Below are positions 1,697 to 18,034 of a stretch of 63,494 nt of DNA, one piece after another. Position 1 is the stretch's first letter, and each line of letters opens with the position of its first letter. Below the pieces are notes generated by a model, which was not told the origin of the DNA, made no database searches, and was given only the letters and a program-made list of their open reading frames with translations. This DNA is from Nitrospina sp. (GTDB lineage: Bacteria; Nitrospinota; Nitrospinia; Nitrospinales; VA-1), in the NCBI GenBank assembly GCA_018673915.1, contig JABHBK010000005.1, positions 1 through 63,494 on the forward strand, in the 5' to 3' direction. The position numbers and the translations under genes were made by a program.

Positions 1697-2401
1697 ATGT
1701 CATTCAAATCAACGTCAATCATAATCATTTTTTTATTAGCCTGTCTTGTAGGCTTGCCATCACTAGTTTTGGCTCATGGTGTTGATGACAATACAAAGCA
1801 ATTTTTAATCGACAATCAAGGCGTGTCCATAATTCCTTTTTTATATATTGGTGCAAAGCATATGGTGACGGGTTATGACCACCTACTGTTTCTCATAGGT
1901 GTCATCTTTTTTCTTTATCGAACAAAAGATGTCTTAGTGTATGTCACTTTATTTACCATAGGACATAGCCTCACTTTGATGTCTGGTGTCTTGAATAATA
2001 TTGCTGTTAACCCCTATTTAATCGATGCCATTATTGGATTTTCTGTGGTCTATAAGGGTTTTGACAATTTAGGAGGTTTTCAACGTTTATTCCACTACCA
2101 GCCTAATACTAAACTTGCTGTTCTTATTTTTGGGTTATTTCACGGTTTTGGCTTAGCTACCAAATTACAAGAATTTCAAATCCCCAATGACGGTTTACTT
2201 GAAAATCTCATTGCCTTCAATGTTGGCGTAGAGTTCGGTCAATTCTTTGCGTTGACGCTAGTTCTCATTGCAATTAGTTTTTGGCGTAGACATAAGAGCT
2301 TTTTACAATTCTCAACTGTAGCCAATTCGCTTTTGATGAGTGGTGGCATGATGTTAGTCGCTTACCAGCTCACTGGTTACTTTTGGCATACCATAGGATA
2401 A
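1697..2401 (+). CDS. HupE/UreJ-type metal transporter, membrane protein
   Basis: The protein is about 234 residues long, with a signal-like N-terminus ending VLAHGVDD and about six further hydrophobic helices. It carries HupE/UreJ-type motifs: KHMVTGYDHLLFLIGV, then a GHSLT motif and FGLFHGFGLA. HupE/UreJ proteins are nickel or cobalt permeases, and the polar His/Asp residues inside helices are thought to carry the metal. A TTG at 1670 and an ATG at 1688 are also in frame. I prefer ATG 1697 because AGGAG at 1681-1685 lies 11 bases upstream, whereas it lies only 2 bases from the ATG at 1688. Neighbours are the DUF6488-type gene and a membrane-anchored protein 4 bases downstream, so an operon is likely. 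Confidence 0.7.
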   Translation: MSFKSTSIIIIFLLACLVGLPSLVLAHGVDDNTKQFLIDNQGVSIIPFLYIGAKHMVTGYDHLLFLIGVIFFLYRTKDVLVYVTLFTIGHSLTLMSGVLNNIAVNPYLIDAIIGFSVVYKGFDNLGGFQRLFHYQPNTKLAVLIFGLFHGFGLATKLQEFQIPNDGLLENLIAFNVGVEFGQFFALTLVLIAISFWRRHKSFLQFSTVANSLLMSGGMMLVAYQLTGYFWHTIG

Positions 2402-2405
2402 TGAT

Positions 2406-2987
2406 ATGACTGAATTAGAACATACAGGAAAAGCACAGCATGAATTGGAACATACTGTCCAATCTAAAAAAACGCTATTTAAGGCAACGGCCTCTGCGGC
2501 GATATTAGCAGTGTTTATTTTTTTTGTAGCGATATTACCAGCTGAGTTTGGGACTGATCCAACAGGTTTAGGAAAATTGATGGGGTTAATTCAGTTGTCA
2601 GGTCAAGTACCGGCGGCCCAAGCTGCAATTCCTAAAGCTGATACTGCTAAACAGAGACAACCGGATCAAAAAAATAGCGTGGATATTAGCATTCCGGCAG
2701 GAAAGGGGTTGGAGTATAAATTTTATTTATCAAAAGGTGATGCCATGCGATATGGTTGGTCAACAAAGGATGGCGAATTGCTCTTTTTTGATTTTCATGG
2801 AGAACCTCAAGGCGATACAACAGGGTATTTTGAAAGTTATACTATTAGTACTGCTAAGACCGTGCGTGGCTCTTTTACCGCTACCTTTGATGGCTCCCAT
2901 GGGTGGTACTGGAAAAATAAGGGGCTCTATGACGTTGTAGTGACACTACAAACTGAGGGAAGCTACAAGATCATTGGTATTAAGTAA
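2406..2987 (+). CDS. Membrane-anchored extracytoplasmic protein next to HupE-like gene
   Basis: The 193-residue protein has a charged N-terminal cytoplasmic stretch with two copies of an ELEHT motif (residues 4-8 and 14-18). One membrane helix follows (about 30-48), then an extracytoplasmic domain. That domain (about 90-193) looks beta-rich: GKGLEYKFYLSKGDAMRYGW, then FDFHGEP and SHGWYWKNKG. This is the protein commonly labelled only as a transmembrane anchor protein in genomes where it accompanies HupE/UreJ-type genes. It starts 4 bases after the HupE-like stop. A partner role for the transporter is inferred from this linkage. Confidence 0.55.
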   Translation: MTELEHTGKAQHELEHTVQSKKTLFKATASAAILAVFIFFVAILPAEFGTDPTGLGKLMGLIQLSGQVPAAQAAIPKADTAKQRQPDQKNSVDISIPAGKGLEYKFYLSKGDAMRYGWSTKDGELLFFDFHGEPQGDTTGYFESYTISTAKTVRGSFTATFDGSHGWYWKNKGLYDVVVTLQTEGSYKIIGIK

Positions 2988-3083
2988 TTCAGGAAACTTA
3001 AAGAATTTAATGCATGTCGTCAATTGAATCAGGATCAAGGTAGGGAATTGGCTAGAGATGTATTAGCACAGTAAACCTATTTT

Positions 3084-3800
3084 TCACTCTTTATGGGAAT
3101 GTCCGCTATGGGTCGTAAGCAGACCAAAATCCGGTATATTGGATATTAAAATATTGTGTCCGCCTGAGGCGGCGATCTCCAAGGCGCGTTTAACGTGGTG
3201 TTGACCTTTGACGTCGGTAAAATCCAACTCATATTCTTTGGCGTGTGGACTCTCGGATTGGATTTCAGGAGTCACTGCCTGAAGCGCCAGATTCCCGCAC
3301 AAAAATTCCAGGGCTTGGGGCAGGGTTTCTATCGGATAAATGGGAATGCCTTCGATCACAGAAACTTCGGCGGCATTTTGCGCAGGTAGAAGAACGCCTT
3401 CCATGCCATTTTCATTCGCCATAGCGGTAATTGACAGTCCGCCGCGAATGGGTTTGACTCGGCCATCGAGAGAAAGCTCCCCTAGAATAACCAGTTTTTT
3501 TAGTCGGTCGTTATCGATCATTCCTGCTGCCGAAAGGATACCGAGAGCGATCGGGAGGTCAAAAGCTGAACCTTCTTTGCGGATGTCGGCAGGAGCCAGG
3601 TTGATAGTGATTTTTCTTACTGGCAAAGCCAACTGGGTATTGCGAATAGCGGCGGAGACGCGATCACTGCTTTCCTTGACGGCCGCATCGGGCAAGCCGA
3701 CGATGGACATTCCAGGTAGGCCCTGTGAGAGATTGACTTCGACTTCAACGGGGTAACCGTCAATTCCCAGAACTGCTCCACTGTGAACGAGTGCGACCAA
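3084..3800 (-). pseudogene. comM: Broken comM/yifB (Mg-chelatase-like AAA ATPase), N-terminal part only
   Basis: Residues 1 to about 217 are a good match to the start of the YifB/ComM family: GAVLGIDGYPVEVEVNL, SIVGLPDAAVKESSDRV, INLAPADIRKEGSAFDLPIA and DVKGQHHVKRALEIAASGG. Intact members are about 500 residues and continue GGHN into the Walker A loop. Here the match stops after GGHNILI, near base 3145. The reading frame then runs 18 unrelated codons to a stop. The whole ATPase core is therefore missing. ComM is a DNA branch-migration helicase used in natural transformation. The break coincides with the edge of the AT-rich metal island at 1-3.1 kb, so an insertion or deletion event is the likely cause. 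The rest of the gene may lie left of the window. Confidence 0.8.
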
Positions 3801-4074
3801 AAGTTCTCCAATCTCTTATAGTTTGATGTTGGTGCGTAGTTTCTGCCCAATATCGGTCTATTTTTATTTTGGTATGCCGATTTAGAACCCAACCTACACG
3901 AGCGGGCTATTTCGGTCAAGCCTGCGGGTCATCTGTTTATAGGAGTCGGGTGAATTTGGGAGTGGAAAGAATTGAAAAATCTACTTCTTTTTAAAGGCGT
4001 TTATTTTTTTCTATGAGCTTTCATCCAAAAAGTCACTGGCATAAACGTGTCCCGGCACAAAGAGGTGCATCAAT

Positions 4075-5925
4075 TCACTTTTGTGAAGGTTTTTCAATTT
4101 GGTTTAACAGGTCTTTTAGGACCTGGGTTTGTTGAGGTGTTGGGTTGAGTGCGAGCGCTGACTTGAGGTGAGTTGCCGCCTTCTTTGAATCATTCTCGAA
4201 TTCCAATAATAGTTTCGCCAGGTTGAATCGCGCAGACAAGAGTTTTGGGTCTAGCTGGACTGATTTCTTAAACTGGATAAGGGCTTCCTCGAACTTTTGC
4301 GATTGCCCCAGTTGGATTCCGGCCTGGTTATGGGCGCGGGCTTTGTCAGAATAAAATGGGGCAGGGTGATACTTGCCCGTGGTTTTGTATAGCGTATCAG
4401 CTTGTTCGTATTCTTCAGTTGCCTGAATAAATTTCCCCAGGTTTCCATACAAGCTGGCGAGGTTGAAATGTGAAGCAGGGTCCATAGGTTGAATACGAAT
4501 GGATTCTTTAAAATGTTTTTCGGCTTCTGAAAAGTTTCCAAGACTTTTATAAGCAATACCGAGGTTTTGATGGACGTCAAAGAGCCTCGGGTTAATCTTC
4601 AATAAGGCTTTTAGCGGTTTTACTGCGTTGGCATAATCCTCTTCCATCAGGTAATGAATGCTTAGGGCTTTACCGACACTCAATTTGTTAGGGGATTTCT
4701 TAAAGGTGTCGGCCCAGAGACTGGATGGAGAAGCATAAGCCTGGTTTCTTTTGACGATCAGAGCTGAAAAAGTAGTGCAGATAAATAGTATCAGAACCGT
4801 TCCCCATATTGCTTTAGGTGTTCTGTTTTTGAATCCGATCAGGAACAGGATGACTGCAAGGAACAGGCAGAGCCCGAATGAAGGAATATACATATTTCGT
4901 TCACTGAACAAGTGGGTGCGTAACATGAAAGAGTTTGTGGGAGCGATGGTCAGTGGAAACCATAAGACGCAGAACGTAAGAACCGAGCTCTTAATGTAGA
5001 ACTTTTTAAAAGCCATAAAAACACATAAGAGAATGATTGCAATGGAAGCCAATAGGGAGGGCCAGGATACCTGGGTCAGAAAATCGTACTCAAAGTTCAG
5101 GTTGATCGGGAACAGGAATAATTTCAGTGGATATTTGAGAAGATCCAGTTGTACCAATCCAATAGGAAAATTGATTTTATGAAAAAAGCCTTCAATGGTA
5201 TTGAACGCATGCGGAGAAAAGAAAAACGCGGCTCCAGCAAGAGCGGGATAGCTCAAATAAAACACCAGCCGTGAACGAAATGATGACCAATCTGGGCCTT
5301 TTATAAAGCATAAGTCATAGATGATAATAATTACTGGCAGGGTGATGGCACTTTCTTTGCTCAAGACTGCCAGGAAAAAACCTGCCAAGGATAAAAGATA
5401 GAGGATGGATCTGGGAGCTCTGCAATCTTTCAAGCTTCCGAGAATGAACAGTAACAAGGAAAAAAAGTAGAAAAATCCTGCCAGGCCACCGGGTCGACCC
5501 GAGATATAGGTAACGGTTTCTGTTTGAATAGGGTGGAGCCCAAATAGCAAGGTGGTAATCAGAGCTATTTTTAGAGCGGCGTCTTCACCCCAAGGCGTTC
5601 CTTTTGCGATGGTCAGTCGAGTGATGATGAAAACCAGAAAAGTGGCGCAAATATGGATCAGGATATTTAATAGATGGTAGCCAAATGGATTCTCCTGACC
5701 CCATTGGTAACTAAGCGCAAAACTCAAGCCGTTGATATGGCGATAACCAATGTTTGACAGGTTGGTGTAATGATCGACACTTGCTATTTGCGGTGTTCCG
5801 TAAATATGTCTCTCGTCATCGCTCTGAAAGGGTGTGTTCAATCCATTGGCATAAATGAGAAATATAATCCCAGCGATGACAACAAAAATATTGAAGGTGC
5901 TCAGCCGGGTCAGGGAATGTTTCAC
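4075..5925 (-). CDS. Polytopic membrane protein with C-terminal TPR repeats (TMTC/GT39-like)
   Basis: The 616-residue protein has two halves. Residues 1 to about 395 hold roughly ten membrane helices and an early luminal loop with FQSDDERHIYG, and then GYHLLNILIHICA. This pattern is typical of TMTC-like and PMT/GT39-related proteins that use lipid-linked sugars. Residues from about 400 to 610 are TPR repeats, for example a repeat ending LGNFSEAEKHFKESIRIQP. TPR tails of this kind bind other proteins. A role in glycosylating cell-surface proteins or lipids is inferred from the fold class. A second polytopic glycosyltransferase-like gene lies divergently at 6242. Confidence 0.65.
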   Translation of the reverse strand: MKHSLTRLSTFNIFVVIAGIIFLIYANGLNTPFQSDDERHIYGTPQIASVDHYTNLSNIGYRHINGLSFALSYQWGQENPFGYHLLNILIHICATFLVFIITRLTIAKGTPWGEDAALKIALITTLLFGLHPIQTETVTYISGRPGGLAGFFYFFSLLLFILGSLKDCRAPRSILYLLSLAGFFLAVLSKESAITLPVIIIIYDLCFIKGPDWSSFRSRLVFYLSYPALAGAAFFFSPHAFNTIEGFFHKINFPIGLVQLDLLKYPLKLFLFPINLNFEYDFLTQVSWPSLLASIAIILLCVFMAFKKFYIKSSVLTFCVLWFPLTIAPTNSFMLRTHLFSERNMYIPSFGLCLFLAVILFLIGFKNRTPKAIWGTVLILFICTTFSALIVKRNQAYASPSSLWADTFKKSPNKLSVGKALSIHYLMEEDYANAVKPLKALLKINPRLFDVHQNLGIAYKSLGNFSEAEKHFKESIRIQPMDPASHFNLASLYGNLGKFIQATEEYEQADTLYKTTGKYHPAPFYSDKARAHNQAGIQLGQSQKFEEALIQFKKSVQLDPKLLSARFNLAKLLLEFENDSKKAATHLKSALALNPTPQQTQVLKDLLNQIEKPSQK

Positions 5926-6241
5926 AGGCTATTACTGTTATAGATGGGCATTGTCGACAAGTCTAAGAAAGTGAAAACTTGTTGTTATTTGTGTCGCAGA
6001 CTTGATTTGTAAGTCAAATCGGGTCAAAATCATAGGGTATGCTTCCGGGTCAGGCCCGGGGGAGACAGGGCAAGAACTCATTAAGCCGAGATCGCTCGTA
6101 GCTCGCTAAATTAAGTCATTGCTCATTGAGTCCAGCGTTACGCTAGTCAGTTTATCAGAATTATCTGAATTTTGCGCCTGCCAGATTACAGGTGTTGACT
6201 CGGACTAAAATCATAACTTACCGCTAAATGCACCCGACTGT
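5926..6241. other. Divergent intergenic region between two membrane glycosyltransferase-like genes
   Basis: No gene is seen in this 316-base stretch. It holds two small dyads, GATTTG/CAAATC (6004-6020) and CCGGG/CCCGG (6045-6059). Both are too short to call as regulatory sites. Promoters for both neighbouring genes should lie here, but I could not pick convincing boxes. Confidence 0.4.
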
Positions 6242-7756
6242 TTGAACCTTCCTTCTAAAATTTTGAATCGTTCAGTGTTATCCGCTCTAATTTTTTGGAG
6301 CGCGCTTTCTGCAATTCTCCATGCCTTATATATCAATACACCCTTTGTGAATTTGGAGTATGTATTTGCCACTGCAACTCAGAGTGTTCTGGATTCTGAA
6401 GCCAAGCAGGGTTTGTCTACTTATTTTTCCATGCAGGCTAATCCACTGGGGTACGTGTGGTTCTCTACGGTTTTTCATTTTCTCACGGGAGAACCAGAAG
6501 GTTTCTGGAGTTATCGACTGGCATCGCTTTCAGGTTTAGTGGCGATTTTGGGTGCGGGAGCAATATTTACGTCTTCTTTGAAGTCGAACTCTATTCGAGA
6601 ATTTCATTTATGGTGCGCCCTGGTTACCTTTTCTCCAATGATTTGGTTGTTCTCAGGCCGAGCCACGGCCGATGTATTGCCGGTAGGTTTGTTGTTGTTG
6701 AGCTTTGCCATGGTTTTTACAAGTGAGACAAGGCCCATTTGTAGATGGCTGGCACCGACAATATTTTTGCTGGCAATAGTCGTCAAATACCATGCCTTGT
6801 TGATGGCACCAGGTTTTATGTATATTTTTTGGTGTCAGAACCAGTGTCAGTTCAATGGGGAATGGGCAAAAAAATGCGGGAAATTTTTTCTCTTTCCGTT
6901 GCTTGGGATTTTTACGTATCTGGTGGCCATGTACAACCTGCACGGTTTTTTTCTGATTCCGAATTCAGTTTCCCAACCCTTCGTACCTGGACTTGGAAAT
7001 TCGCTGAAAAACTTTTCCCTGTATGCCAGTTATCTTGGCATATTACTGGGGCCGTTTGCCCTCGTCAGCATTTTCAGTGTGAGAAAAAACTGGCCGCAGA
7101 AATGGTGGCTCTTTTTACTGGTGGGTTTGGGGCTTGGAGTGTGGATGGAAACAAATCTCTTGGGCTATCAGGTCGGGGAGATGAACTACGGACCGTTGGA
7201 TGGCATTATGAATGGCTCACTGGTTCTGTTGATGAAGGGATTGGGAGGAATATGTTTTGTTTTTCTCATTTTTGATTGTTTTGTTGACGGGAACAAAAAT
7301 AAAAATGCGGTTGCAGGATTTCTTTTGACGGTATGTCTTCCCTATTTATTGATCTGTTCAACCACTCGCCCAGCCCAGAGATATCTGATTTTCTTGATTC
7401 CAATAATTTTCTTTTACCTGGTTTTTTATAAAACAGAAAATCATAAACATTACCGCACTGTGCTCGGTTGGGGAACGGTGGCAGTTTTTGTTTTGACCAA
7501 TATTTTTGCGGTGAACTATCAGGTTGCGCAAGCTAGAGCCTCCGATAATATGGCTCAATGGCTGATCAAAAATAACTTGATTGAGCAAACCCATTCGGGA
7601 AGTCTTTATTCCAACAGTGGTCAGTACTTTATTCCTTATTTGGGGAGCCCTAAAACTCAGCGTGTTTTGGAACGTTCGGGGGATGTGGAAACATCGTTAC
7701 ATTCCGAAAAAGTGGTGGTTTTTGGCAAGACTTTGAAAACTTATTACCTGGAATAG
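6242..7756 (+). CDS. Polytopic glycosyltransferase-like membrane protein (ArnT/PMT superfamily)
   Basis: The 504-residue product has about 11-12 membrane helices. A short first loop carries a charged patch before FATATQSVLDSEAKQG, followed by the aromatic-rich NPLGYVWFSTVFHFLTG. The segment FWSYRLASLSGLVAILGAG resembles the first helices of ArnT and other GT-C (GT39/GT83) enzymes, which transfer sugars from polyprenyl phosphate on the outer face of the inner membrane. The only start before the first helices is TTG at 6242, because the next in-frame ATG lies about 60 codons in. The family call is tentative because GT-C enzymes diverge widely. Confidence 0.5.
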   Translation: MNLPSKILNRSVLSALIFWSALSAILHALYINTPFVNLEYVFATATQSVLDSEAKQGLSTYFSMQANPLGYVWFSTVFHFLTGEPEGFWSYRLASLSGLVAILGAGAIFTSSLKSNSIREFHLWCALVTFSPMIWLFSGRATADVLPVGLLLLSFAMVFTSETRPICRWLAPTIFLLAIVVKYHALLMAPGFMYIFWCQNQCQFNGEWAKKCGKFFLFPLLGIFTYLVAMYNLHGFFLIPNSVSQPFVPGLGNSLKNFSLYASYLGILLGPFALVSIFSVRKNWPQKWWLFLLVGLGLGVWMETNLLGYQVGEMNYGPLDGIMNGSLVLLMKGLGGICFVFLIFDCFVDGNKNKNAVAGFLLTVCLPYLLICSTTRPAQRYLIFLIPIIFFYLVFYKTENHKHYRTVLGWGTVAVFVLTNIFAVNYQVAQARASDNMAQWLIKNNLIEQTHSGSLYSNSGQYFIPYLGSPKTQRVLERSGDVETSLHSEKVVVFGKTLKTYYLE

Positions 7757-7911
7757 ACCTAAGTTGCAGGTTTTTTCAAAAAACTTGTGGATTATGCAAG
7801 AATTCGGTCCATATTGGGGTTGGATTGTTAAAGGTCATGATTTGAGATGTCGTTAAGACTATGTCAGATCGTGTGTTTAATTATATTTCCAACTGGAAAA
7901 AAGGATGGGGA

Positions 7912-10164
7912 ATGCCTATTAAACGTCCCAAGCATTTGCTGATAATTGGGGGTGGAGTTTTTCAAGTACCTGCCATCAAGACTGCCAAGTCTATGGGGTT
8001 GAAAGTGGCGGTGACGGACTATAACCCAGAAGCAGAAGGCATGCTTTTGGCAGATTATCCGATTGAAGTCAGCACTCGCAATATCAACCTTACCGTAAAC
8101 ACTGCTAAGCAATTCCATAGTACTTGTGCGCTAGATGGAGTGATGACAGTGGGAACCGATGCATCTCAGACGGTGGCGGCAGTAGCCGATGCCTTGGGCA
8201 TACCGGGAATTCCATTTGAGGTAGCAGAGCGCGCTACTGACAAAATCAAAATGCGCCAGGTGTTGAAGGAAAAGGGTGTGCCGGTTCCGAAATTTCGACC
8301 TATCTGGACTCTGGACGAATGTCAGGAGGCCGTTAAGCACATGCCCTTGCCGCTGGTCATTAAGCCTTGCGATAACATGGGCGCACGCGGAGTTCGAAAA
8401 ATAGAAGGTCATGATGACCTCATCCCAGCTTTTCGTGAGGCTAAAGAAGCCTCAATAAGTGGAAAACTGATTCTTGAAGAATTCATGGCCGGTCCAGAGT
8501 TGAGCCTGGATGCTTTGGTATTTGAGGGTGACATCCATATTACTGGGGTTGCGGATAGAATCATTGAACGAGCGCCTTATTTTGTTGAAGTTGGGCATAC
8601 GCTTCCTTCTGCATTACCAGCGGAACAACAGGCAAAAGCCATTGAAGTTTTTAAACAAGCCATTTCTGCATTGGGGATTGACCTTGGAGCTGCTAAAGGT
8701 GACATCAAAATAACTCCTGATGGCCCGAAGATCGTTGAGATTGCCGCCCGCTTGAGCGGAGGATGGATGTCGGCCTACACCTATCCATTGTCTACGGGAG
8801 TCAATCTTTATAAAGCGGCGATCCAGATTGCCTTGGGAGAAAAACCTACCGACCTGACACCGAAAACCTCACTGGTATCTGCTGAACGGTCTCTGCTTCC
8901 CCCACCGGGGAAAATTCTATCCATTCGTGGGGTGGAAGAAGCCCGAAAAATTAAAGGGGTCAAAGAAATTATTTTAATGAAAGAAGCTGGGGACATGGCG
9001 GAAGAACCCCGAAGCAATATGGGCAAGGTGGGTTATGTGATCACAGTTGGAAATACCCGTGAAGAAGCCATTCGCATCAACGATCTGGCTCGAGATATTC
9101 TGAAAATAGAAGTGGGTGCCGCGAATGATCTGACCTGGGACATCATTCGCAACAACGCCCGCAAGAAATTTTATATTGCCTGCAAAGCTTGTACAGTTTG
9201 CGATGGATTAGAATGTGCCGGAAAAGTACCGGGAATCGGTGGAATTGGGACCGGCACCTCTTTTACCGAAAACCTGACTGCACTCGCTCGCTATCAGATT
9301 AATCTGAGAACCATTCATGAAGTAAAAGCTCCCGAAACTTCGGTGGAGCTGTTTGGGCATAAACTGGCTCTTCCCGTTCTGGCAGCCCCCATCACTGGTA
9401 TGGAAACCAATTTGGCAGGAGGCATGGATGAGAGAGAATATGCCGATGCCATTCTTGATGGTTGTCTCGAATGCGGCACGCTGGGAATGGTGGGCGATGG
9501 GGCGAGTCCTAAAAAGTATTTGATCGGATTGGAAGCCATTAAAAAGCGGGGCGGACTGGGAATCCCCATTTTTAAGCCTCGGGAGTACAATCTCGATATC
9601 ATTAAACGCTTCAAAGCTGCCGAAGATGCAGGAGCCATCGCCGTTGGAATTGATATCGATGCTGCATCGTTTAAAACCATGACCCTGAAGGGCCAGGCAG
9701 TGGGACCCAAAACCATCTCTGAATTGCAGGAACTGAAATCGCATGTAAAAGTCCCATTTATATTAAAAGGCATCATGAATGTGGAATCAGCGTTGGCGGC
9801 AATAGAAGCCGGGGCCGATGCTATTGTTGTTTCCAATCATGGTGGAAGAGTGATGGACCATATGCCGGGAACGGCGGAAGTACTGCCCGAAATTGCCAAT
9901 GCAGTAGGAGGCCGAGTTAAAGTGCTGGTCGATGGAGGCATTCGTGAAGGCACCGATATCCTGAAAATGCTGGCATTGGGAGCCGATGCAGTTATGATCG
10001 GTCGACCGGTTTGTATTGCCGCATTCGGAGCGGGTCAAGAAGGCGTTTCCTTTTATTTAAGGGAAAAGATGAATGAATTGAAAAAAGCCATGATTCTGAC
10101 AGGTTGTGGTTCCATTGGTCGTATTGATCCTTCTGTCATATTCCGCTGTAAAGGAGACCGGTAA
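7912..10164 (+). CDS. ATP-grasp ligase domain fused to FMN-dependent alpha-hydroxy-acid oxidase domain
   Basis: This protein of about 750 residues joins two enzymes. The N-terminal 400 residues are a carbamoyl-phosphate-synthase-like ATP-grasp ligase: HLLIIGGGVFQVPAIKTA (dinucleotide-type loop), LVIKPCDNMGARGVRKI (ATP lid), LILEEFMAGPELSLDAL, then KIVEIAARLSGG (metal ligands). A four-cysteine motif CKACTVCDGLEC (bases 9181-9216) leads into a lactate/glycolate-oxidase-like TIM barrel. The barrel keeps the active-site Lys (9766-9768), the catalytic VSNHGGR (His codon 9838-9840) and the FMN phosphate site DGGIREGTDILKMLALGA. An ATG at 7861 is in frame, but 7912 has AAGGA six bases upstream and fits the family start better. 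Its stop is followed at once by the ATG of a CitE-like gene, so the two are surely cotranscribed. The substrate is unknown. Confidence 0.8.
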   Translation: MPIKRPKHLLIIGGGVFQVPAIKTAKSMGLKVAVTDYNPEAEGMLLADYPIEVSTRNINLTVNTAKQFHSTCALDGVMTVGTDASQTVAAVADALGIPGIPFEVAERATDKIKMRQVLKEKGVPVPKFRPIWTLDECQEAVKHMPLPLVIKPCDNMGARGVRKIEGHDDLIPAFREAKEASISGKLILEEFMAGPELSLDALVFEGDIHITGVADRIIERAPYFVEVGHTLPSALPAEQQAKAIEVFKQAISALGIDLGAAKGDIKITPDGPKIVEIAARLSGGWMSAYTYPLSTGVNLYKAAIQIALGEKPTDLTPKTSLVSAERSLLPPPGKILSIRGVEEARKIKGVKEIILMKEAGDMAEEPRSNMGKVGYVITVGNTREEAIRINDLARDILKIEVGAANDLTWDIIRNNARKKFYIACKACTVCDGLECAGKVPGIGGIGTGTSFTENLTALARYQINLRTIHEVKAPETSVELFGHKLALPVLAAPITGMETNLAGGMDEREYADAILDGCLECGTLGMVGDGASPKKYLIGLEAIKKRGGLGIPIFKPREYNLDIIKRFKAAEDAGAIAVGIDIDAASFKTMTLKGQAVGPKTISELQELKSHVKVPFILKGIMNVESALAAIEAGADAIVVSNHGGRVMDHMPGTAEVLPEIANAVGGRVKVLVDGGIREGTDILKMLALGADAVMIGRPVCIAAFGAGQEGVSFYLREKMNELKKAMILTGCGSIGRIDPSVIFRCKGDR

Positions 10165-10956
10165 ATGAAACCCAAAAAATCGGTTTTGAAGGTGGTTCCG
10201 GTCAAGCCGGATAAAGGGTTGCGGTCCACCTTCCTGGAATTAAAAAATGAGTTTGGGGCTTGTGGGCTTAAATTATCCACTGAAGATGCTGCCATGAGTA
10301 TGGAGCAAGTTGGCTATTGGGTAGAGGCCGCAGGAAATATTTTGCCTGCGGTGGTTAAGATAGGCGGCCCCAATGCCCGGAACGATATCAAACAATTCCT
10401 CCCTATGAACATTGATGGCTTGATCGCTCCTATGGTGGAATCTCCTTATGGTCTGGAAAACTTTATTTCAGCGGTGCGCGATTTCACCACCCCCATGCAA
10501 TTTGAGCGGGTGAAAAAACAGATTAATATTGAAACTGAAACTGCTGTCAGGCAACTGGATGAAATTCTTTCTGCACCAGAAGCGAATTATATTGACGAGA
10601 TTACCATCGGCTGTAGTGACCTGTCGGAATCCATGAAGGCACCCCGGTGGTCAGAAAACCTCATGTTTCAGGTGGTAAAGGCGGTTAAGAAAATCCAAAG
10701 AAAAAAAATTCCCGTTTCGGTAGGCGGAGGAATCACCCCTGAGACCATTGGTGGATTCCTGGAACAAGTCAAGCCGGATAAGTTTAATACCCGGGTTGTT
10801 ACCTTCAAAGTCGAACCGGGGCGAGACTACTTCGAAGCGGTTCGATCTGCATTACGTTTTGAAATTCTCATGCTTGAATACGATTCCTCCCGAAATTTTA
10901 TCTCCCGCGATGAAGAAAAATTCCGCATCAAAGAGCTGAAAAAGCGATTTAAATAA
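10165..10956 (+). CDS. HpcH/HpaI / CitE-like aldolase or lyase
   Basis: The 263-residue TIM-barrel protein carries HpcH/HpaI/CitE family signatures: VVKIGGPNARNDI, DGLIAPMVESPYGLENF (metal-ligand Glu), then NIETETAVRQLDEIL and ITIGCSDLSESM (the conserved G-x-x-DLS). Such enzymes cleave or form C-C bonds in 2-oxo-acid or acyl-CoA substrates with a divalent metal. The gene begins on the base after the stop of the ATP-grasp/FMN-oxidase fusion. The two probably act on one pathway in which a hydroxy acid, its oxo form and a C-C bond step meet. It is not a citrate lyase complex subunit, since no CitD or CitF is nearby. Confidence 0.75.
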   Translation: MKPKKSVLKVVPVKPDKGLRSTFLELKNEFGACGLKLSTEDAAMSMEQVGYWVEAAGNILPAVVKIGGPNARNDIKQFLPMNIDGLIAPMVESPYGLENFISAVRDFTTPMQFERVKKQINIETETAVRQLDEILSAPEANYIDEITIGCSDLSESMKAPRWSENLMFQVVKAVKKIQRKKIPVSVGGGITPETIGGFLEQVKPDKFNTRVVTFKVEPGRDYFEAVRSALRFEILMLEYDSSRNFISRDEEKFRIKELKKRFK

Positions 10957-10973
10957 ACCGGCGAGCCGCCGGT
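10957..10973. terminator. GC-rich stem-loop after the aldolase gene
   Basis: ACCGGCG (10957-10963) and CGCCGGT (10967-10973) form a perfect 7-bp stem with a 3-base loop, starting on the base after the stop codon. A T-rich run follows about 15 bases later. It is likely the transcript end or an mRNA-stabilising hairpin. Confidence 0.5.
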
Positions 10974-11003
10974 GGCCTTGATATTCTTTTTCTCTAACAG
11001 GGT

Positions 11004-11076
11004 CGTCATCGCGAGCCGCAAAGCGGCGTGGCGATCCAGAGTTTCGCTGGATTGCTTCACTTTGTTCGCAATGATG
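11004..11076. repeat. Dispersed palindromic repeat (long imperfect hairpin)
   Basis: The left arm (from CGTCATCGCGAGCC to GGCGATCCAG) pairs imperfectly with the right arm (CTGGATTGCTTCACTTTG to CGCAATGATG) around a short AGTTTCG loop. This resembles the CGTCATTGCGAG...CTGGATTGCTTCG family of short interspersed hairpins known from many environmental genomes. Its presence elsewhere in this genome cannot be tested here, and only one copy lies in the window. Confidence 0.6.
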
Positions 11077-11617
11077 ATTTATGCAAAGCTTTCCTTCTAA
11101 ATGGAAGCAATTCCTTTCCATTTTTGCCTGCAATATTTCGTTCAGGATATTATTGACAAAATATCAAAGCAATAACTTGATGAGGAACTGTTCCTCAGTA
11201 GTAAAAATTCCTAAAGTACTTGATAGTCTGGCCTTTATGGGTTGGGCTTTCCCTTTTGTCATAATACTAACTCGAAGGAAAAATTACCTTATTAGGTAGC
11301 TTTGATATTGGGACAGGTACGCGGATGGGACATGAAAACCCTAAAAATAGTTCGATAGAATGTTTTTAAGTTGAGCAAAGAAGAGCAGCAGCTATAGGTA
11401 GAGAAGGAGATGTTAGGGATGAGGGTTAAAGGGTAAAGAGATTCCATCAATAAGGCTGGGGGAAGTAGTCAGAGGGGACCAGTTTCTGTTTTGTACCGGT
11501 CACAAGGCAACTCATCTGACTTGTGAAAATAAAGTTTGCAGGTGAAACCTTTTGAAAAAATAGGCTTTAAAGGTTTTTAAAAAAAGAATTTCAATTTCTG
11601 TTGGGGGTGTTGTGCTA

Positions 11618-11631
11618 CAACTACTTAGTTG
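11618..11631. promoter_or_regulatory. Operator-like dyad upstream of the 59-residue gene
   Basis: CAACTA and TAGTTG flank a 2-base centre, giving an exact palindrome 34 bases upstream of the small gene's ATG. A GATAAT box follows at about 11639-11644. Both fit a regulated promoter, but the -35 region is not clear. Confidence 0.35.
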
Positions 11632-11664
11632 CAAAATGGATAATAACCAACATGGAGAACGCCT

Positions 11665-11844
11665 ATGCATTTACCTGTACCAAAGCAACAAGTATTAAAA
11701 GAATCTGCGGATAACCTCAAAAGGATCGCTGTGAGGTTGACAGAGTTGGCGGAGAGCAACTGCCACCCACCATCCGAGGTTGAGTCAGAGATTAGACAGA
11801 TTAGTGACACTGCTTATCTGCTTAATAAGCTGATGCAGAACTAA
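11665..11844 (+). CDS. Small hypothetical protein, 59 residues
   Basis: An ATG preceded by GGAG (9 bases upstream) opens a 59-codon frame. The product begins MHLPVPKQQVLKESADNLKR, is mostly amphipathic helix and has one Cys, with no signal peptide. Two stem-loops follow the stop, the second of which looks like a Rho-independent terminator. A palindrome precedes it. This complete transcription-unit layout makes a real gene likely. I do not recognise the family. It could be a small regulator or the remnant of a mobile element. Confidence 0.5.
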   Translation: MHLPVPKQQVLKESADNLKRIAVRLTELAESNCHPPSEVESEIRQISDTAYLLNKLMQN

Positions 11845-11851
11845 AAAGAAA

Positions 11852-11939
11852 GGCCCATCAGTGCACCAACACTGACAGGCCATCTACTAACAGACAGGTC
11901 GGGTCTCTGCCTTATATAGCGAGGCCCGATCTGAATTTT
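11852..11939 (+). terminator. Double stem-loop and terminator of the small gene
   Basis: The first hairpin pairs GGCC with GGCC and TCAGTG with CACTGA (11852-11881). The second pairs TCGGGTCTC with GAGGCCCGA around a TATA-rich loop (11899-11929), followed by a T-run. The second is a plausible Rho-independent terminator. Confidence 0.6.
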
Positions 11940-12162
11940 TCAAAAAGAAGTATATCACAAGTATATATCAAGTATATCTATGATAGTCACTTGGATCACA
12001 CCCAAGAAATAACGTCCCAAATGCGGTCTAAGGATATTTTTGATATTTACTCAGAATCCTTAGTACATAGTTTCAAGCGCATAAAAATGGGACGCGCGGG
12101 ACTGTCCCAAGTACCGATTACCTGCCTAAAGATGTATTTTAAGGCTTCAGTTAGATGTTTTA

Positions 12163-12190
12163 TTGACAAAATACTGAAATGTCTTACAAT
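12163..12190 (+). promoter_or_regulatory. Promoter for the ATP-citrate lyase operon
   Basis: A perfect TTGACA (12163-12168) and TACAAT (12185-12190) stand 16 bp apart, leaving an untranslated leader of about 130 bases before aclB. No operator-like dyad overlaps it. The strength of the boxes suits a constitutive carbon-fixation gene. Confidence 0.6.
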
Positions 12191-12329
12191 ACAACCCTCG
12201 AATTACCCTGAAACTAAGTAAATATATGAATTTAGCCGGAATTTAGTCCGATAGAATTCCATTAAATTATTGATTCTTTAGACTCTCACACTTAAAACCC
12301 TTTTTTATTTTGGAAGGCAGGAGAAAACG

Positions 12330-13598
12330 ATGCAGATAACTGGCATGCTTTGGGGGCGTAAACTGTTGGACCTCGTAGAATACCCTCACTCAGAAGTTCG
12401 AGGTCCTGAACTCAGTGTCGATGAAATCAAAGATATGATCAAGCGGCACGGTCAGGTTTTTATCAAGCCTTTATTTAAAGGAGGGGTTGGTAAAAAGGGG
12501 AAGGCCGGTTTATTGGGTCGGGTTGACAACATCTCCGACGCCTTGAAGGAAAAGGAACGCCTTTATTTTGCTGAGCATGTCGATGGGTTCAGTAAAGTAA
12601 AATCTGACGGTGTGACTTATGAAGGTGCGGTAACTGCTGATTTTGAAGTTTATTTTTCTATTTCTGAAAGCACCGAGCATCGGTGTCCTGTGATGACCAT
12701 CACTCATCATGGTGGAATTGATATTGAAGAACTTGGGGACGATAAAATGAAAGTGGTGCCGTTTGATGCCTTGACGGGACTGAAAGCATTTCATGTTTCC
12801 AATGCTTTGATGGAACTTGGCGCACCTCCTGCGGTGATCAGTCCGCTGGTGCAGAACCTGCCCAAACTCTGGGATCTTTATAACAACTACGGCATGATGA
12901 TGCTGGAGCTTAATCCCATCCGCATGCAACCCGGCAAAGGCGGACGTCTGGCCCCGATTGCTTGCGACTTTAAATGCGCGTTTGATCAGGATGACCCGGC
13001 TTGGAAGCGTTTGCACCTTCCCTCGCATTTATTCGCCTCCGACTACTCTGAGTTTGAACAGGAGATCAATCAACTGCGAACCTATCAGGGGCAAAGTGAC
13101 GTATTTGTCATGAATGATAAGGGCACCATTACTGCGCCAACTTTTGGTGGCGGTGCTAACGCCATGGTCACAGAACTCCTGGGTGAAGACGCGACTATCT
13201 CTTCCGATTTTGGCGGTAATCCCCCGTATGAAAAAATGCACGATATTTCCAGAATCAGCTTCAAATACTGGTTGCCACAATCCAATGTGCTTTTCATCAT
13301 CGGCGGTAAAGCCAATAACACAGATATCTATGAAACGTTCCGAGCTATGGGTGATGGACTGCGAGATTTCTTCCAGACTCATGGGCCGACTCCCTTGTTT
13401 GTTGTGGTGGGCCGGGGCGGACCGAATGTTATTCGCGGTATGAATTACCTGCGAGATATTCTTGATTCTTTAGGAATTCCTTACCGTTTCTTCGGGCATG
13501 ACAGTGCTATGTCCGAGGTGATCAATTACACTCTGGCAGTTAACGAGTGGATGAAAAATGGCGGCAAGGATGAAATTAAAGCGAAACTTAAAATCTAA
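12330..13598 (+). CDS. aclB: ATP-citrate lyase, small (beta) subunit
   Basis: The 422-residue protein is the ATP-grasp/succinyl-CoA-synthetase-beta-like subunit of ATP-citrate lyase. N-terminal ATP-grasp elements (HGQVFIKPLFKGGVGKKGKA) are followed by MMMLELNPIRM. A flavodoxin-like C-terminal half contains FGGGANAMVTELLG and FVVVGRGGPNVIRGM. With AclA it splits citrate to acetyl-CoA and oxaloacetate using ATP and CoA, the key step of the reductive TCA cycle. GGAG precedes the ATG. aclA follows after 92 bases in the same direction. The length is near that of Chlorobium AclB (about 400). Confidence 0.9.
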   Translation: MQITGMLWGRKLLDLVEYPHSEVRGPELSVDEIKDMIKRHGQVFIKPLFKGGVGKKGKAGLLGRVDNISDALKEKERLYFAEHVDGFSKVKSDGVTYEGAVTADFEVYFSISESTEHRCPVMTITHHGGIDIEELGDDKMKVVPFDALTGLKAFHVSNALMELGAPPAVISPLVQNLPKLWDLYNNYGMMMLELNPIRMQPGKGGRLAPIACDFKCAFDQDDPAWKRLHLPSHLFASDYSEFEQEINQLRTYQGQSDVFVMNDKGTITAPTFGGGANAMVTELLGEDATISSDFGGNPPYEKMHDISRISFKYWLPQSNVLFIIGGKANNTDIYETFRAMGDGLRDFFQTHGPTPLFVVVGRGGPNVIRGMNYLRDILDSLGIPYRFFGHDSAMSEVINYTLAVNEWMKNGGKDEIKAKLKI

Positions 13599-13690
13599 GT
13601 CTCGAGTTTCCGGAAGGTAAAACCAGCCGGGCCCAGGACTTAATGAACTTTAAATATCTATTAAAATTGTTTTTCGTTTTGGAGGTTTGA

Positions 13691-16405
13691 ATGCATAAGC
13701 AAGGCGTGGGAGATTTCCCCTTTTACTGTGGCATTAACTCCTTGTCTGAACTGGCGGTCAAAGAAGACAGGGTTGTTGTCTTAAACATTTTGGGCAAAGA
13801 AAGCTCAGGAGTAACCCCTATCAGCAACGATTATTCCGGCGGCAATATTGTATTTGGAACAGGACCAGGAAAATCCGGCAAATCTCTTGCTACCAAGACC
13901 GGGAAGATTCCTGTTTACAACTCTATTAAAGAGGGTATGGAAGCCGGTCATAAATTTAATACCGTTGTGATCTATTTGCCACCCTCCGGTGTGAAGGATG
14001 GGATCGCCGAAGCGGTGCGTGAAAATCCGGATCTAAAAAAAGCAATTATTCTGACTGAGAAGGTGTCGGTAAAAGATTCCCGCGTTATGCGTGCAATTTG
14101 TCAGGCCAATGGTGTTGACCTGTTTGGCGGCAACTGTCTGGGCCTTGCGGATGCCTGGAACCATGTTCGCCTTGGCGGTGCGCTGGGTGGCAACGCTCCG
14201 GAAGAGTCTCTGGTCAAGGGAACCGTAGCCTTGTTCTCCAATTCAGGAAATTTCACCACTACCATCGCAGTTTATCTGACCACTGCAGGGTGGGGCACCA
14301 CTACTTCGGTTTCCAGCGGCAAGGATGTTTATATCCAATATGGGGCGAAAGAGTTTTTGCATGCCTTTGACAATGATGATCGCTCGAAAGTGGCAGTTAT
14401 GTACAGTGAGCCGGGTGGTTATTATGAACACGGTCTGAAATCAGATAAGCCCATCGTTGCCTGTGTGGTAGGGCGTTGGAAAGCCAGGCTGAGCAAAGCG
14501 TGCGGACATGCCGGGTCACTGGCGGGTTCCGGAGACGATGCCCTGGCGAAAGAGCAATGGTTCATGGACTATTTTGGTGTGGATGGTATTTACACCCCGC
14601 AAAAGCCGATTTTCTCGAAAAAAGGCGCATTGGTGACAAATATCGCCCACATACCGGAAGCCGTTAGCAAGGTCATGGAGCTTAACGGACAAAAGCCGGA
14701 TTTTGCACCTAAAGGAAGCTTGGACTTGAAAAGCTGGTTTGGTAATAATCAAGGCCTGTCGTTACCCTCTGAACTGGATGTCCCGATTGTTGAGGCATCC
14801 GAGCCTTACAACCAACAGATTGAAGCTCTGGATAAAATGGTTGGTGCACAGCATCGTCGAGAGACGCTCAAGGATGCCAGCGGTGCTTCCATGATGGATC
14901 CGAAAACCCAGGTTTCTAAAATTCATAGCACTTCGATTCTTGATGCTTCTGTTAAAAGCTTTGAAGCGAATCTGGTCTATGCATTGACCCGGGTTTATAC
15001 CTGTGATTATGGCGAAAAGATTGCCAACATTGTGTTGAACATGTATGTCAATCAGCATGGTCAGGCCACTCTGGCGGCAGCAGAAGCCTCAAGGGAAAAT
15101 GGGAATTCGCCAAATACTGTGGTGTCCTCGGCGGTTGCCATCTGCGGGAAAAAAATTGTGCAAAAAGCCATGGACGCTTCCGCAGCACTGACGGAAATGT
15201 TTCAGTTTACCAAGATGAACGATGTGCGCGAGAAGTTTGATTATGCCGCCCAGTTGAAAGAAGCTGATAAGCATAAAGATGCTCTCCTTGCTGATGGAGA
15301 GGATGCTTGTGCCAAAAAGCTGGCAGAATGTCTCAATAAAGCGGGCTACTCTGTCTTTGTCCAGTTTGTGCAGGACTTTGCAGCAGCCAATGGTGGCAAG
15401 CTCTCTACCGATGCGCTCTTTGGAGCCGTGTGGGCCACTCTCGGTTGGGAAGCCTTAAGAACTAAAAAGATTTCAAAAGTTACCCTGGCGCGTTTGCCCT
15501 GGTACTCACGTATCTATAGCACTATTGTTGGTGCATCAGCTCCTGCCTCCCGACATGGGGAAGACAGCATTGCTGGAGTTAAGCTGGAAGAGTTGATTCC
15601 CAATTACAGTTTTACCAAGACGGCGTTTGTCACGCTTCTGGGTCGTCAGCCATCTGAATCCGAGCTCTATGAATTTCAGGTATTGCTCGGACTCATCATC
15701 ACTAACGGACCCGGTACCATCTCGGCTCAGGGTTCCAAAGGAGCGGTGAGTGCCGATGGACCCGAACAGCCTCAACGGGTTCAGGTGAACAAGGCTTTCA
15801 TCGGTTTTCTCACTCATACCGGGTTCGCCCATGGTGGAAACGGTTATGAAGCCGCCGCTTTCCTGCTGGAAAACTTTAAGGGAAAAGGTCTTAAGGATGC
15901 CGCGGATACCGGGCATGGACTGGATCTCGATGCGATGGCAATGGAAGTGGCAAACAAATACTCTGATTATAAAAAGCAGCAGAAAGCGATTGGCAATCTT
16001 GATTACGCCAAACTTCCCTGCGTCAATCACCCGGTGTTCAAAGGGAAAGATGTTAACTACGATCCTCGGGAAGTTTTTGTGAGAGACCTTTTTAAAGAAA
16101 AGGGTATCAATAACGTTTTTCTGGATTTTTACCATAGCCTGGTTGAGTCTTTGTTCAAGACCAAGGTTAGTAAAAATGTTTACTGCGTAAATATCGATGC
16201 GGTTATCGCTGTTATTTTGCTTAAGGTGGTCTGGTCTGACTTCCAGGACGGCAAGATGAAAGAAGAAGATATTGAGTCCGCCAGTTTTGCGACCTTCCTG
16301 TTCGGCAGGATGATTGGTTGTGCCGCAGAAATTGATGACCATACTTCACGCGGTAAAAATATGGATACTCGTACGCCCGCCAGCAAAGTCCGCTACGTGG
16401 GTTAA
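13691..16405 (+). CDS. aclA: ATP-citrate lyase, large (alpha) subunit, extended form
   Basis: The 904-residue protein holds a CoA-binding/ligase half and a citrate-synthase-like half. The ligase half shows NGVDLFGGNCLGLAD, LFSNSGNFTTT and the phosphohistidine loop KACGHAGSLAGSGDD. The C-terminal lyase half has GFAHGGNGYEAAAFLLENF and ends with a conserved-looking DDHTSRGKNMDTRTP. It provides citryl-CoA cleavage in the reductive TCA cycle. The Chlorobium AclA is about 610 residues, so some 300 residues are extra, mostly in the middle and lyase parts (about 400-700). The ribosome site GGAGG is strong. A perfect-stem hairpin closes the operon at 16544. Confidence 0.88.
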   Translation: MHKQGVGDFPFYCGINSLSELAVKEDRVVVLNILGKESSGVTPISNDYSGGNIVFGTGPGKSGKSLATKTGKIPVYNSIKEGMEAGHKFNTVVIYLPPSGVKDGIAEAVRENPDLKKAIILTEKVSVKDSRVMRAICQANGVDLFGGNCLGLADAWNHVRLGGALGGNAPEESLVKGTVALFSNSGNFTTTIAVYLTTAGWGTTTSVSSGKDVYIQYGAKEFLHAFDNDDRSKVAVMYSEPGGYYEHGLKSDKPIVACVVGRWKARLSKACGHAGSLAGSGDDALAKEQWFMDYFGVDGIYTPQKPIFSKKGALVTNIAHIPEAVSKVMELNGQKPDFAPKGSLDLKSWFGNNQGLSLPSELDVPIVEASEPYNQQIEALDKMVGAQHRRETLKDASGASMMDPKTQVSKIHSTSILDASVKSFEANLVYALTRVYTCDYGEKIANIVLNMYVNQHGQATLAAAEASRENGNSPNTVVSSAVAICGKKIVQKAMDASAALTEMFQFTKMNDVREKFDYAAQLKEADKHKDALLADGEDACAKKLAECLNKAGYSVFVQFVQDFAAANGGKLSTDALFGAVWATLGWEALRTKKISKVTLARLPWYSRIYSTIVGASAPASRHGEDSIAGVKLEELIPNYSFTKTAFVTLLGRQPSESELYEFQVLLGLIITNGPGTISAQGSKGAVSADGPEQPQRVQVNKAFIGFLTHTGFAHGGNGYEAAAFLLENFKGKGLKDAADTGHGLDLDAMAMEVANKYSDYKKQQKAIGNLDYAKLPCVNHPVFKGKDVNYDPREVFVRDLFKEKGINNVFLDFYHSLVESLFKTKVSKNVYCVNIDAVIAVILLKVVWSDFQDGKMKEEDIESASFATFLFGRMIGCAAEIDDHTSRGKNMDTRTPASKVRYVG

Positions 16406-16661: not shown

Positions 16662-17048
16662 ATGGGAGAGGATAAGAGAGGTTTTCCACGTTCGTTAGTA
16701 GAGCTGGTCGTTAAAATTCAGACCGGAGGCAGTTGGTCGGACTGCAAGGTTCTTGATCTTTCAGTGGAAGGAATTTCCCTGGAAGTTCAGCAACGGCTTC
16801 AAGTGGCTGAGTTAGTCACTATTGAGCTGGAACATGGCGAGTGGATGAAGAAAAATCAGGTGCAGGCCGAAGTACTCCGTTGCGACAGCAACCCTAACGA
16901 AACCAACCCTGAAATTTATCATATGGTAGCAAGGTTGATTGAGCCAAACGATGAATACCTGATGGGTGCTCTCAACATGGTTCATGGGGATGGCCCAAAG
17001 CAAGACCGGCGACCACTGAATTTCGGAAAGAGAGAAGATGGAAGATAA
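16662..17048 (+). CDS. PilZ-domain protein (c-di-GMP receptor)
   Basis: The 128-residue single-domain protein has the two c-di-GMP binding signatures of PilZ: RxxxR in KRGFPRS (Arg6, Arg10) and DxSxxG in DLSVEG (32-37). It is cytosolic, with no membrane segment. It probably couples c-di-GMP level to motility or surface behaviour, and a flagellar cluster lies 21 kb away. Its last 11 bases overlap the next gene, a truncated haemoglobin, so translation of the two is likely coupled. A second PilZ protein lies 0.6 kb downstream. Confidence 0.8.
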   Translation: MGEDKRGFPRSLVELVVKIQTGGSWSDCKVLDLSVEGISLEVQQRLQVAELVTIELEHGEWMKKNQVQAEVLRCDSNPNETNPEIYHMVARLIEPNDEYLMGALNMVHGDGPKQDRRPLNFGKREDGR

Positions 17049-17460
17049 TAATCTGCTGCAGGATGTGGGTGGAAGGGCGGTCTTGGAAAAAGTACATAAA
17101 CTTTTTTATGACAAGCTTTACGAACATCCCTGGCTGAAGAAATTTTTTCTGCATATTGAGCAAAAGCTTATCGAAAACCAGCAAACCGATTTCATGGTTT
17201 CCAATATGGGGGGTGGAAAAATTTATTCCGGCGGCTTGCCGAAGAGGGTCCACCGGCATATGTATATCACCGAAGAGCTATTTGATTTGCGTACCAAAAT
17301 TTTAAAAGAGTCCATTCTCGCGTGCGGAGTAAAGGAAGCTTTGGTCGAGCGATGGATTCGAATAGACAGCGCGTTCAAGCATTCCCTCGTTAAATCCAGC
17401 GTCGACAAATGTGAAAAGCGATATTTCACCGACGAAATCCTCAGCTTTCCCAAACCCTAA
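17038..17460 (+). CDS. Truncated haemoglobin-like globin
   Basis: The 140-residue protein resembles truncated globins. The helix A/B region DVGGRAVLEKVHKLFYDKL leads to PWLKKFF, a Gly-rich turn SNMGGGKIYSG, and a candidate proximal His in VHRHMYITEELFDLR, then GVKEALVERWIRID. Truncated haemoglobins bind O2 or NO and often protect against nitrosative stress, which would suit a nitrite or nitric oxide environment. The ATG lies inside the end of the PilZ gene, 11 bases before its stop codon ends. Coupling a haem sensor or scavenger to a c-di-GMP receptor is suggestive. Confidence 0.7.
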   Translation: MEDNNLLQDVGGRAVLEKVHKLFYDKLYEHPWLKKFFLHIEQKLIENQQTDFMVSNMGGGKIYSGGLPKRVHRHMYITEELFDLRTKILKESILACGVKEALVERWIRIDSAFKHSLVKSSVDKCEKRYFTDEILSFPKP

Positions 17461-17613
17461 TAGCCCACAGTTTCCAAAACTTTCGTTCTTAGCAAAGGCT
17501 TTTTGCTATTTCGAGCAGGTTTTGATAAAACGCCACTAGGCATGGACCCCTGATAATGAAGTTTAACAGGAGCCAAAGAGAGGCAAGGACTTTTAACCTT
17601 ATTATGATTTGGA

Positions 17614-17970: not shown

Positions 17971-18034
17971 CTCTCTTTATAGACGAACAAGAATTTCAGT
18001 TCTCTGGAGGTGTTTTATTCAACCGCAGGAAGGG

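Follow-up and report, generated by a model that had tools for sequence, protein, structure and literature searches.

An ATP-grasp/FMN hydroxy-acid dehydrogenase fusion and its adjoining aldolase in Nitrospina: probable enzymes of a flagellar glycan pathway

The window analysed here, a stretch of 63,494 nucleotides of Nitrospina sp. (assembly GCA_018673915.1, contig JABHBK010000005.1, forward strand), harbours a gene for an ATP-grasp ligase fused to a flavin mononucleotide (FMN)-dependent hydroxy-acid dehydrogenase and, abutting on it, a gene for an HpcH/HpaI-CitE-like aldolase. Both products are probably enzymes of a flagellar glycan pathway, because PseG-like, Maf and FliS genes stand in rows with the fusion in Hydrogenedentota, and because the fusion co-occurs with Maf-type glycosyltransferase and flagellin genes, not with genes for ATP-citrate lyase (ACL). 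It is possible, though doubtful, that they constitute a previously undescribed route to flagellar glycans comprising an aldol step, four-Cys flavin redox chemistry at C2 and ATP-grasp amide ligation to a nonulosonic acid; ligase and redox functions would here be united in one chain of possibly single origin common to Nitrospinota, Spirochaetota and Hydrogenedentota. ATP-grasp amidoligases of flagellar glycans are known; the FMN fusion is unexplored. No description of it was found in the literature searched, most subscription journals lying outside that search, nor was anything on it found in the available portion of PMC11009272. If the flagellar reading is true, it provides a testable function for a bifunctional protein that is encoded by roughly half of the sampled Spirochaetota and by 18 of the 31 good Nitrospinota genomes (at least 90 % complete, at most 5 % contaminated), identifies candidate genes for the acylation of flagellar sugars and corrects the carbon-fixation reading suggested by gene order alone.

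Distribution and co-occurrence

Across Nitrospinota, the full-length fusion was detected in 33 of 77 genomes, among them the single-contig assemblies G017 and G025, and fragments (68–96 % identity) in six more; G043 encodes a solo ATP-grasp protein, not a fusion, and the fragment in G052 is 90 residues long and contains a stop. In G021, NeuB and MptE-like sequences persist as remnants interrupted by internal stops, and both G021 and G052 are devoid of a flagellin match; these remnants and the stopped fusion fragment represent decay of the pathway in the two genomes. Beyond this phylum, scanning genome contigs with a pattern initially retrieved eight fusion loci from Spirochaetota and Hydrogenedentota metagenome-assembled genomes. 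Whole-genome searches of 296 Spirochaetota yielded a match (E ≤ 1e-60, the cut-off by which the protein is counted in this phylum) in 234, and one stretch reaches both halves in at least 148 of the 296 (148 genomes among the matches listed). Since the fusion thus recurs in both phyla, it is no assembly artefact, a possibility that the first-pass annotation of the window had raised against itself. In a quick tree of 59 ATP-grasp halves, the fusions and Treponema-type solo proteins fell into one starred clade, and the tree is compatible with a possibly single origin of the fusion. None of 20 viral stretches that fitted a pattern encoded a relative, and on plasmids the halves were found only apart in the five regions opened, with none of 1145 records covering 80 % of the query.

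Among the good Nitrospinota genomes, a Maf-type glycosyltransferase (PF01973, E ≤ 1e-30) accompanies the fusion in all 18 that have it; of the 13 others, 11 have none. One of the two Maf-positive exceptions is G018, in which the aldolase gene stands at a contig end that would cut off the missing fusion beside it. Four or more flagellin-type matches distribute as 18/0/2/11 (both, fusion only, marker only, neither); the cuts for Maf and flagellin matches were chosen in this analysis. The four good g14 genomes are large (2.9–3.2 Mb), flagellin-bearing and fusion-less and have no strong Maf match; therefore, genome size or flagellin alone fails to explain the pattern. Mapped onto an ACL alpha protein tree without G018, the presence or absence of the fusion requires six changes, and in five independent pairs Maf agrees in 4.6 on average and never opposes. 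In Spirochaetota, the protein is encoded by 234 of 281 genomes with flagellin versus none of 15 without (Fisher p 1.5e-11, uncorrected for relatedness or completeness). Taken together, presence of the fusion goes with that of Maf-type glycosyltransferase and flagellin genes, not with ACL.

Gene neighbourhoods

Directly downstream of the fusion come, in this order, a Maf/MptE-like gene and fliS, which codes for the flagellin secretion chaperone, in each of the two Hydrogenedentota loci read. The row of genome G083 (locus L129) consists of genes for a PseG-like protein (6175–7179), the aldolase (7169–7987), the fusion (to 10223), Maf (10240–11514) and FliS (11566–12027), which overlap or nearly so and are preceded by an acyltransferase-like frame (by eye). 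In G078 (L122), fusion (2257–4494), Maf (4491–5810) and FliS (5814–6245) follow one another, and a separate contig carries the row cytidylyltransferase, PseG, aldolase. For the two FliS proteins, matches to solved FliS chains were obtained at 4e-15 and 3.6e-15; the PseG-like proteins share 37 % identity, that of G078 scoring 153.3 bits versus a PseG cut-off of 153.55.

Related gene contexts surround the solo ATP-grasp proteins of Treponema type, which have one protein cluster directly upstream in 17 of 42 loci; its annotated member (L139) is a cytidylyltransferase-PseG-like-methyltransferase chain, and a weak FlaA2-like match was noted for the L139 cluster. The solo proteins themselves (L139, 7989–9626, and other Treponema loci) measure about 540 amino acids and carry an extra C-terminal stretch of about 130. 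The gammaproteobacterial loci of ATP-grasp homologues share one cluster of their own upstream in 3/3 (a thiamine pyrophosphate enzyme in the one annotated), with a cytidylyltransferase-PseG-type protein downstream in 2/3. The source genome of the window itself encodes a cytidylyltransferase directly upstream of its flagellin genes (contig C48), with 31 % identity to the Hydrogenedentota enzyme and 29 % to the Treponema domain.

The fusion protein

The fusion occupies an open reading frame (ORF) of 767 amino acids (7861–10164, plus strand), whose stop codon TAA is immediately followed by the ATG of the next ORF (10165–10956, 263 amino acids). Its true start is probably position 7912 and not 7861, because the Met18 position, give or take one residue, is where 24 of 32 full-length Nitrospinota relatives start and an AAAGGA box (by eye; 7900–7905) lies 6 nt upstream. 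The first-pass annotation had proposed an ATP-grasp ligase and an FMN-dependent hydroxy-acid oxidase in one chain, and this stands: Pfam ATP-grasp_3/4 and LAL_C2 domains (residues 125–418) and FMN_dh (PF01070, E 5.7e-69; 233.2 bits versus a cut-off of 24.9) lie in a single frame, an architecture conserved in relatives. Foldseek assigned the first half of the structure model to the L-amino-acid ligase BL00235 (3vot) and the second to mandelate oxidase (6a3t); the AlphaFold model has a mean pLDDT of 78.4 and a pTM of 0.57, the Cys region being one of those modelled with low confidence.

For the ligase half, BL00235 was the top match, and the likeness to CarB suggested earlier proved loose, the ATP-grasp assignment holding while carbamoyl-phosphate synthetase profiles fitted less well than BL00235 and LAL_C2. 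Judged from its ATP-grasp and LAL_C2 domains and the fold of the L-amino-acid ligase/ATP-grasp amidoligase class, this half is an L-amino-acid-ligase-type ATP-grasp enzyme with a predicted amide-forming activity.

In the FMN half, K214, H238 and R241 of the domain are invariant in 14 of 14 aligned sequences and correspond to Lys636 and to the His and Arg of the SNHGGR motif, which we take to be the catalytic residues of hydroxy-acid dehydrogenases. The earlier statement that the catalytic residues look intact thus holds for this triad. It does not extend to the Tyr in FQIY of lactate oxidase, presumably the Tyr that binds the substrate carboxylate in hydroxy-acid oxidases: FQIY aligns to GIPI/IF, is not conserved among the 14 and remains unmatched, and since it does, a simple hydroxy acid of lactate or glycolate type cannot be assumed as substrate. 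The motif CxxCxxCxxxxC was recovered at 9181–9216, where it had first been noticed. The suggestion that it is no new addition is borne out by two stand-alone clostridial FMN proteins (from Acetoanaerobium and Vescimonas; 14 FMN halves aligned), which retain all four Cys, pointing to a motif typical of this branch of the FMN family. Confidence of the structure model at the motif is too low to judge a metal site.

The aldolase

The aldolase gene begins on the base after the fusion stop, as observed on first pass, and this coupling is general: 20 of 21 Nitrospinota loci have it behind the fusion, at a spacing of 0–245 bp, and it is present in 18/18 good genomes with the fusion plus G018. Its AlphaFold model (mean pLDDT 91.2) was assigned by Foldseek to HpaI-type pyruvate aldolases, a fold family that includes a citrate synthase (SbnG, 4tv5). 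The class II aldolase fold and the metal-binding Glu123 and Asp152 (invariant in 29/29, aligned to HpaI) are present; the positions of an Arg and a His, presumably active-site residues of HpaI, are apparently taken by Lys65 and Asp41 (by eye; the stretch aligns weakly to HpaI). The protein has a signature of its own, KLSTEDA...KIGGPNARND.

Aldolase genes are rarer in Spirochaetota (75 of 296 genomes, 71 of these with an ATP-grasp match), and outside Nitrospinota the aldolase adjoins the fusion in one of 28 loci (G083). Genes flanking Leptospiraceae aldolases code for a symporter, an SDR and PurK and display no clear theme; a related methyltransferase was present in 4 of 20 spirochaete aldolase loci. 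A remote relative (28 % identity) is encoded on an Ilyobacter plasmid (L172, 5971–6744) amid genes for aconitase, an isocitrate-type dehydrogenase and a 2-hydroxycarboxylate transporter; therefore, the aldolase family also has metabolic members.

Proposed pathway and relation to known systems

Class II aldolases of this fold form 2-oxo-4-hydroxy acids, FMN_dh enzymes interconvert 2-hydroxy and 2-oxo acids, and LAL-type ATP-grasp enzymes produce amides via acyl phosphates. The general idea of hydroxy-acid redox chemistry, ATP-dependent ligation and C–C chemistry put forward on first pass still fits these families. In the proposed pathway, the aldolase would join a pyruvate-type enolate and an aldehyde to a 2-oxo-4-hydroxy acid, the FMN half would set the redox state at C2 (2-oxo or 2-hydroxy), and the ATP-grasp half would activate the carboxylate as acyl phosphate and couple it as an amide to a sugar amino group, the sugar being most likely a nonulosonic acid; a Maf-type glycosyltransferase would then place the acylated sugar on flagellin. 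Combining enzyme families and gene rows, the likeliest product would be an N-acyl group on an amino-nonulosonate destined for flagellin. We infer the substrates, the order and direction of the steps, the nonulosonic acid acceptor and flagellin as final target.

Several described systems resemble parts of this scheme. In Shewanella oneidensis, the ATP-grasp_4 protein SfmE (SO_3265) of sfmABCDE is needed for full modification of flagellin, which bears a glycan of a nonulosonic acid plus a 236–264 Da group; the mass shift upon SO_3265 deletion was slightly smaller than for other sfm genes (PMC3765264). The Clostridium difficile ATP-grasp protein CDR20291_0245 is required for the peptidylamido-sugar on type B flagellin (PMC5207246). 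Treponema denticola FlaB proteins bear a glycan of 450.2 Da that is essential to motility and to the assembly of filaments (PMC9481697), Leptospira FlaB1 is apparently glycosylated (PMC13144727), and nonulosonic acids occur in Leptospira, the available part of that report making no mention of an ATP-grasp protein or aldolase (PMC3438082).

By description, the fusion resembles SfmE as an ATP-grasp carboxylate-amine ligase in nonulosonate modification of flagellin; no FMN fusion is described for SfmE, however, and the sfmABCDE operon has no named aldolase. The Treponema-type solo ATP-grasp proteins are the nearest solo relatives by tree and have ATP-grasp residues in common with the fusion, but a stretch of about 130 amino acids replaces the FMN half. 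BL00235 shares fold, LAL_C2 layout and 24–25 % identity with the ligase half, yet it is by name a free enzyme joining amino acids and is devoid of an FMN half. Lactate oxidase (7f20) and hydroxymandelate oxidase (6a3t) agree in barrel and catalytic Lys/His/Arg, and differ in the four-Cys N-terminal motif and the unmatched Tyr of the fusion. In the same way, the class II pyruvate aldolases HpaI, YfaU and DDG (7et9, 2vws, 1dxe) share fold and metal Glu/Asp with the window aldolase, which deviates at the apparent Lys65/Asp41 positions and in its signature.

A number of observations weigh against a flagellar role. The gene-row evidence stems from some lineages only: both Hydrogenedentota loci are flagellar/sugar clusters, whereas fusion and aldolase have no flagellar or sugar gene beside them in any of the 21 Nitrospinota loci probed, the window included, and a probe-type sugar gene lies within about 9 kb in only 2 of 20 spirochaete fusion loci (L240 and L245). 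In spirochaetes, the surroundings of fusion and aldolase vary for the most part (20 loci for each gene), some Leptospiraceae and Spirochaetaceae fusion loci are without any such neighbour, and the aldolase is next to none of the 20 spirochaete fusions examined. Moreover, 163 of the 234 Spirochaetota with the protein have no aldolase, and 4 of the 75 with the aldolase do not encode the protein. With a permissive Maf cut-off (E ≤ 0.001) the Nitrospinota counts become 18/0/5/8 (Fisher p 1.6e-4), 5 of the 13 fusion-less good genomes then having a Maf-family match, and among all 77 genomes 13 have Maf without the fusion and two the fusion without Maf. Flagellin alone predicts less well, two or more matches giving 18/0/7/6; G024 and the four g14 genomes have 3–4 flagellin-type matches and no fusion, and 31 small spirochaete genomes with two such matches do not encode the protein. 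The tree-aware sign test returned p 0.0625, the minimum attainable with five pairs, and cannot pass 0.05. The likeness to SfmE is one of description. NeuB, tried as a further marker, was discarded as non-discriminating, being present in 31/31 good genomes.

Alternative explanations

The first-pass annotation had suggested a link to carbon assimilation from the ACL genes downstream of the aldolase (starting at 12330 and 13691, same strand); this would be a branch feeding or salvaging carbon at the ACL step. This placement is frequent, aclB lying on the same strand at most 5 kb downstream in 17 of 21 Nitrospinota loci, and SbnG within the aldolase fold family would also fit. Co-occurrence, however, largely refutes the link and renders it very improbable: the ACL alpha gene is present in 31/31 good genomes versus 18/31 for the fusion, and an ACL homologue was found in none of the 28 fusion loci outside Nitrospinota (loci searched, not whole genomes). 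G012 and G005 keep ACL and have at the locus a comM-like gene next to aclB, the intervening block being absent; G012, the nearest sister, with 83–86 % DNA identity on both flanks, has no counterpart of window positions ~3802–11117 at this locus. In G050 and G051, fusion and ACL are on different contigs. ACL is therefore a neighbour of the fusion, not its partner. The ACL genes need not share a transcript with fusion and aldolase either, judging from aldolase-aclB gaps of 1373 bp in the window and 196–4851 bp across the 16 loci (of 21) that allowed a measurement, versus the short fusion-aldolase spacing.

Closer to the preferred flagellar reading is the idea that the enzymes decorate another surface glycan (lipopolysaccharide, capsule or S-layer), with flagellin tied in indirectly via nonulosonic acid supply or a motile lifestyle. 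ATP-grasp relatives (36–43 % identity) in capsule or pse clusters on plasmids speak for it, as does the full-length NeuB of the source genome, encoded beside a methyltransferase and a flippase-like protein (flippase by eye). It is nonetheless unlikely in view of the Maf and FliS genes directly after the fusion in both Hydrogenedentota loci and the absence of the protein from all 15 aflagellate spirochaetes; Maf proteins, moreover, are thought to transfer glycans onto flagellin (PMC3765264). A small-molecule or dipeptide ligase with a flavin tailoring domain, whose metabolite or signal would merely coincide with motile genomes, is suggested by the close solved structures, all L-amino-acid ligases (3vot, 4wd3, BacD), and by the LAL_C2 domain; the rows with PseG-like, Maf and FliS genes and a co-occurrence that follows Maf and not merely genome size, as exemplified by g14, make this rather improbable.

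Coordinates and further features of the window

Table 1 Features of the fusion-aldolase region (positions in the window)
Feature	Position	Strand	Basis and remarks
Fusion gene, probable true extent, 750 aa	7912..10164	+	ATP-grasp ligase half, four-Cys linker and FMN_dh half; ORF extends back to 7861
ATP-grasp domain, residues 125–304 of the 767-aa frame	8233..8772	+	Pfam ATP-grasp_3/4; fold match 3vot
L-amino-acid ligase C-terminal domain 2, residues 345–418	8893..9114	+	Pfam LAL_C2, E 5.2e-19
FMN-dependent hydroxy-acid dehydrogenase barrel	9181..10140	+	Pfam FMN_dh; alignments; fold match 6a3t
CxxCxxCxxxxC motif	9181..9216	+	Conserved without change in the alignment of 12 fusions with 2 stand-alone FMN relatives
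Lys636 codon; SNHGGR	9766..9768; 9832..9849	+	Within barrel
Putative ribosome-binding site of the aldolase, AAAGGAG	10150..10156	+	By eye; within the end of the fusion gene
HpcH/HpaI-CitE-like class II aldolase	10165..10956	+	Pfam HpcH_HpaI; begins one base past the fusion stop; follows fusion in 20/21 Nitrospinota loci
Membrane protein, 504 aa	6242..7756	+	10 hydrophobic segments; in block absent from G012 and G005 loci
Membrane protein, 616 aa	4075..5925	-	C-terminal tetratricopeptide repeats, 8 hydrophobic segments; in block absent from G012 and G005 loci

The two membrane proteins upstream may share a function with fusion and aldolase. The gap between aldolase and aclB (10957–12329) compares with 233–538 bp in four close relatives and contains a palindromic, repeat-like sequence near 10960–11060 (by eye). 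The ACL genes (12330–16405) are divergent, the alpha subunit of 904 amino acids matching citryl-CoA lyase models weakly (2.1e-12). Past them, two PilZ-domain proteins, a bacterial globin and a weak Dyp-peroxidase match are encoded at 16662–18772.

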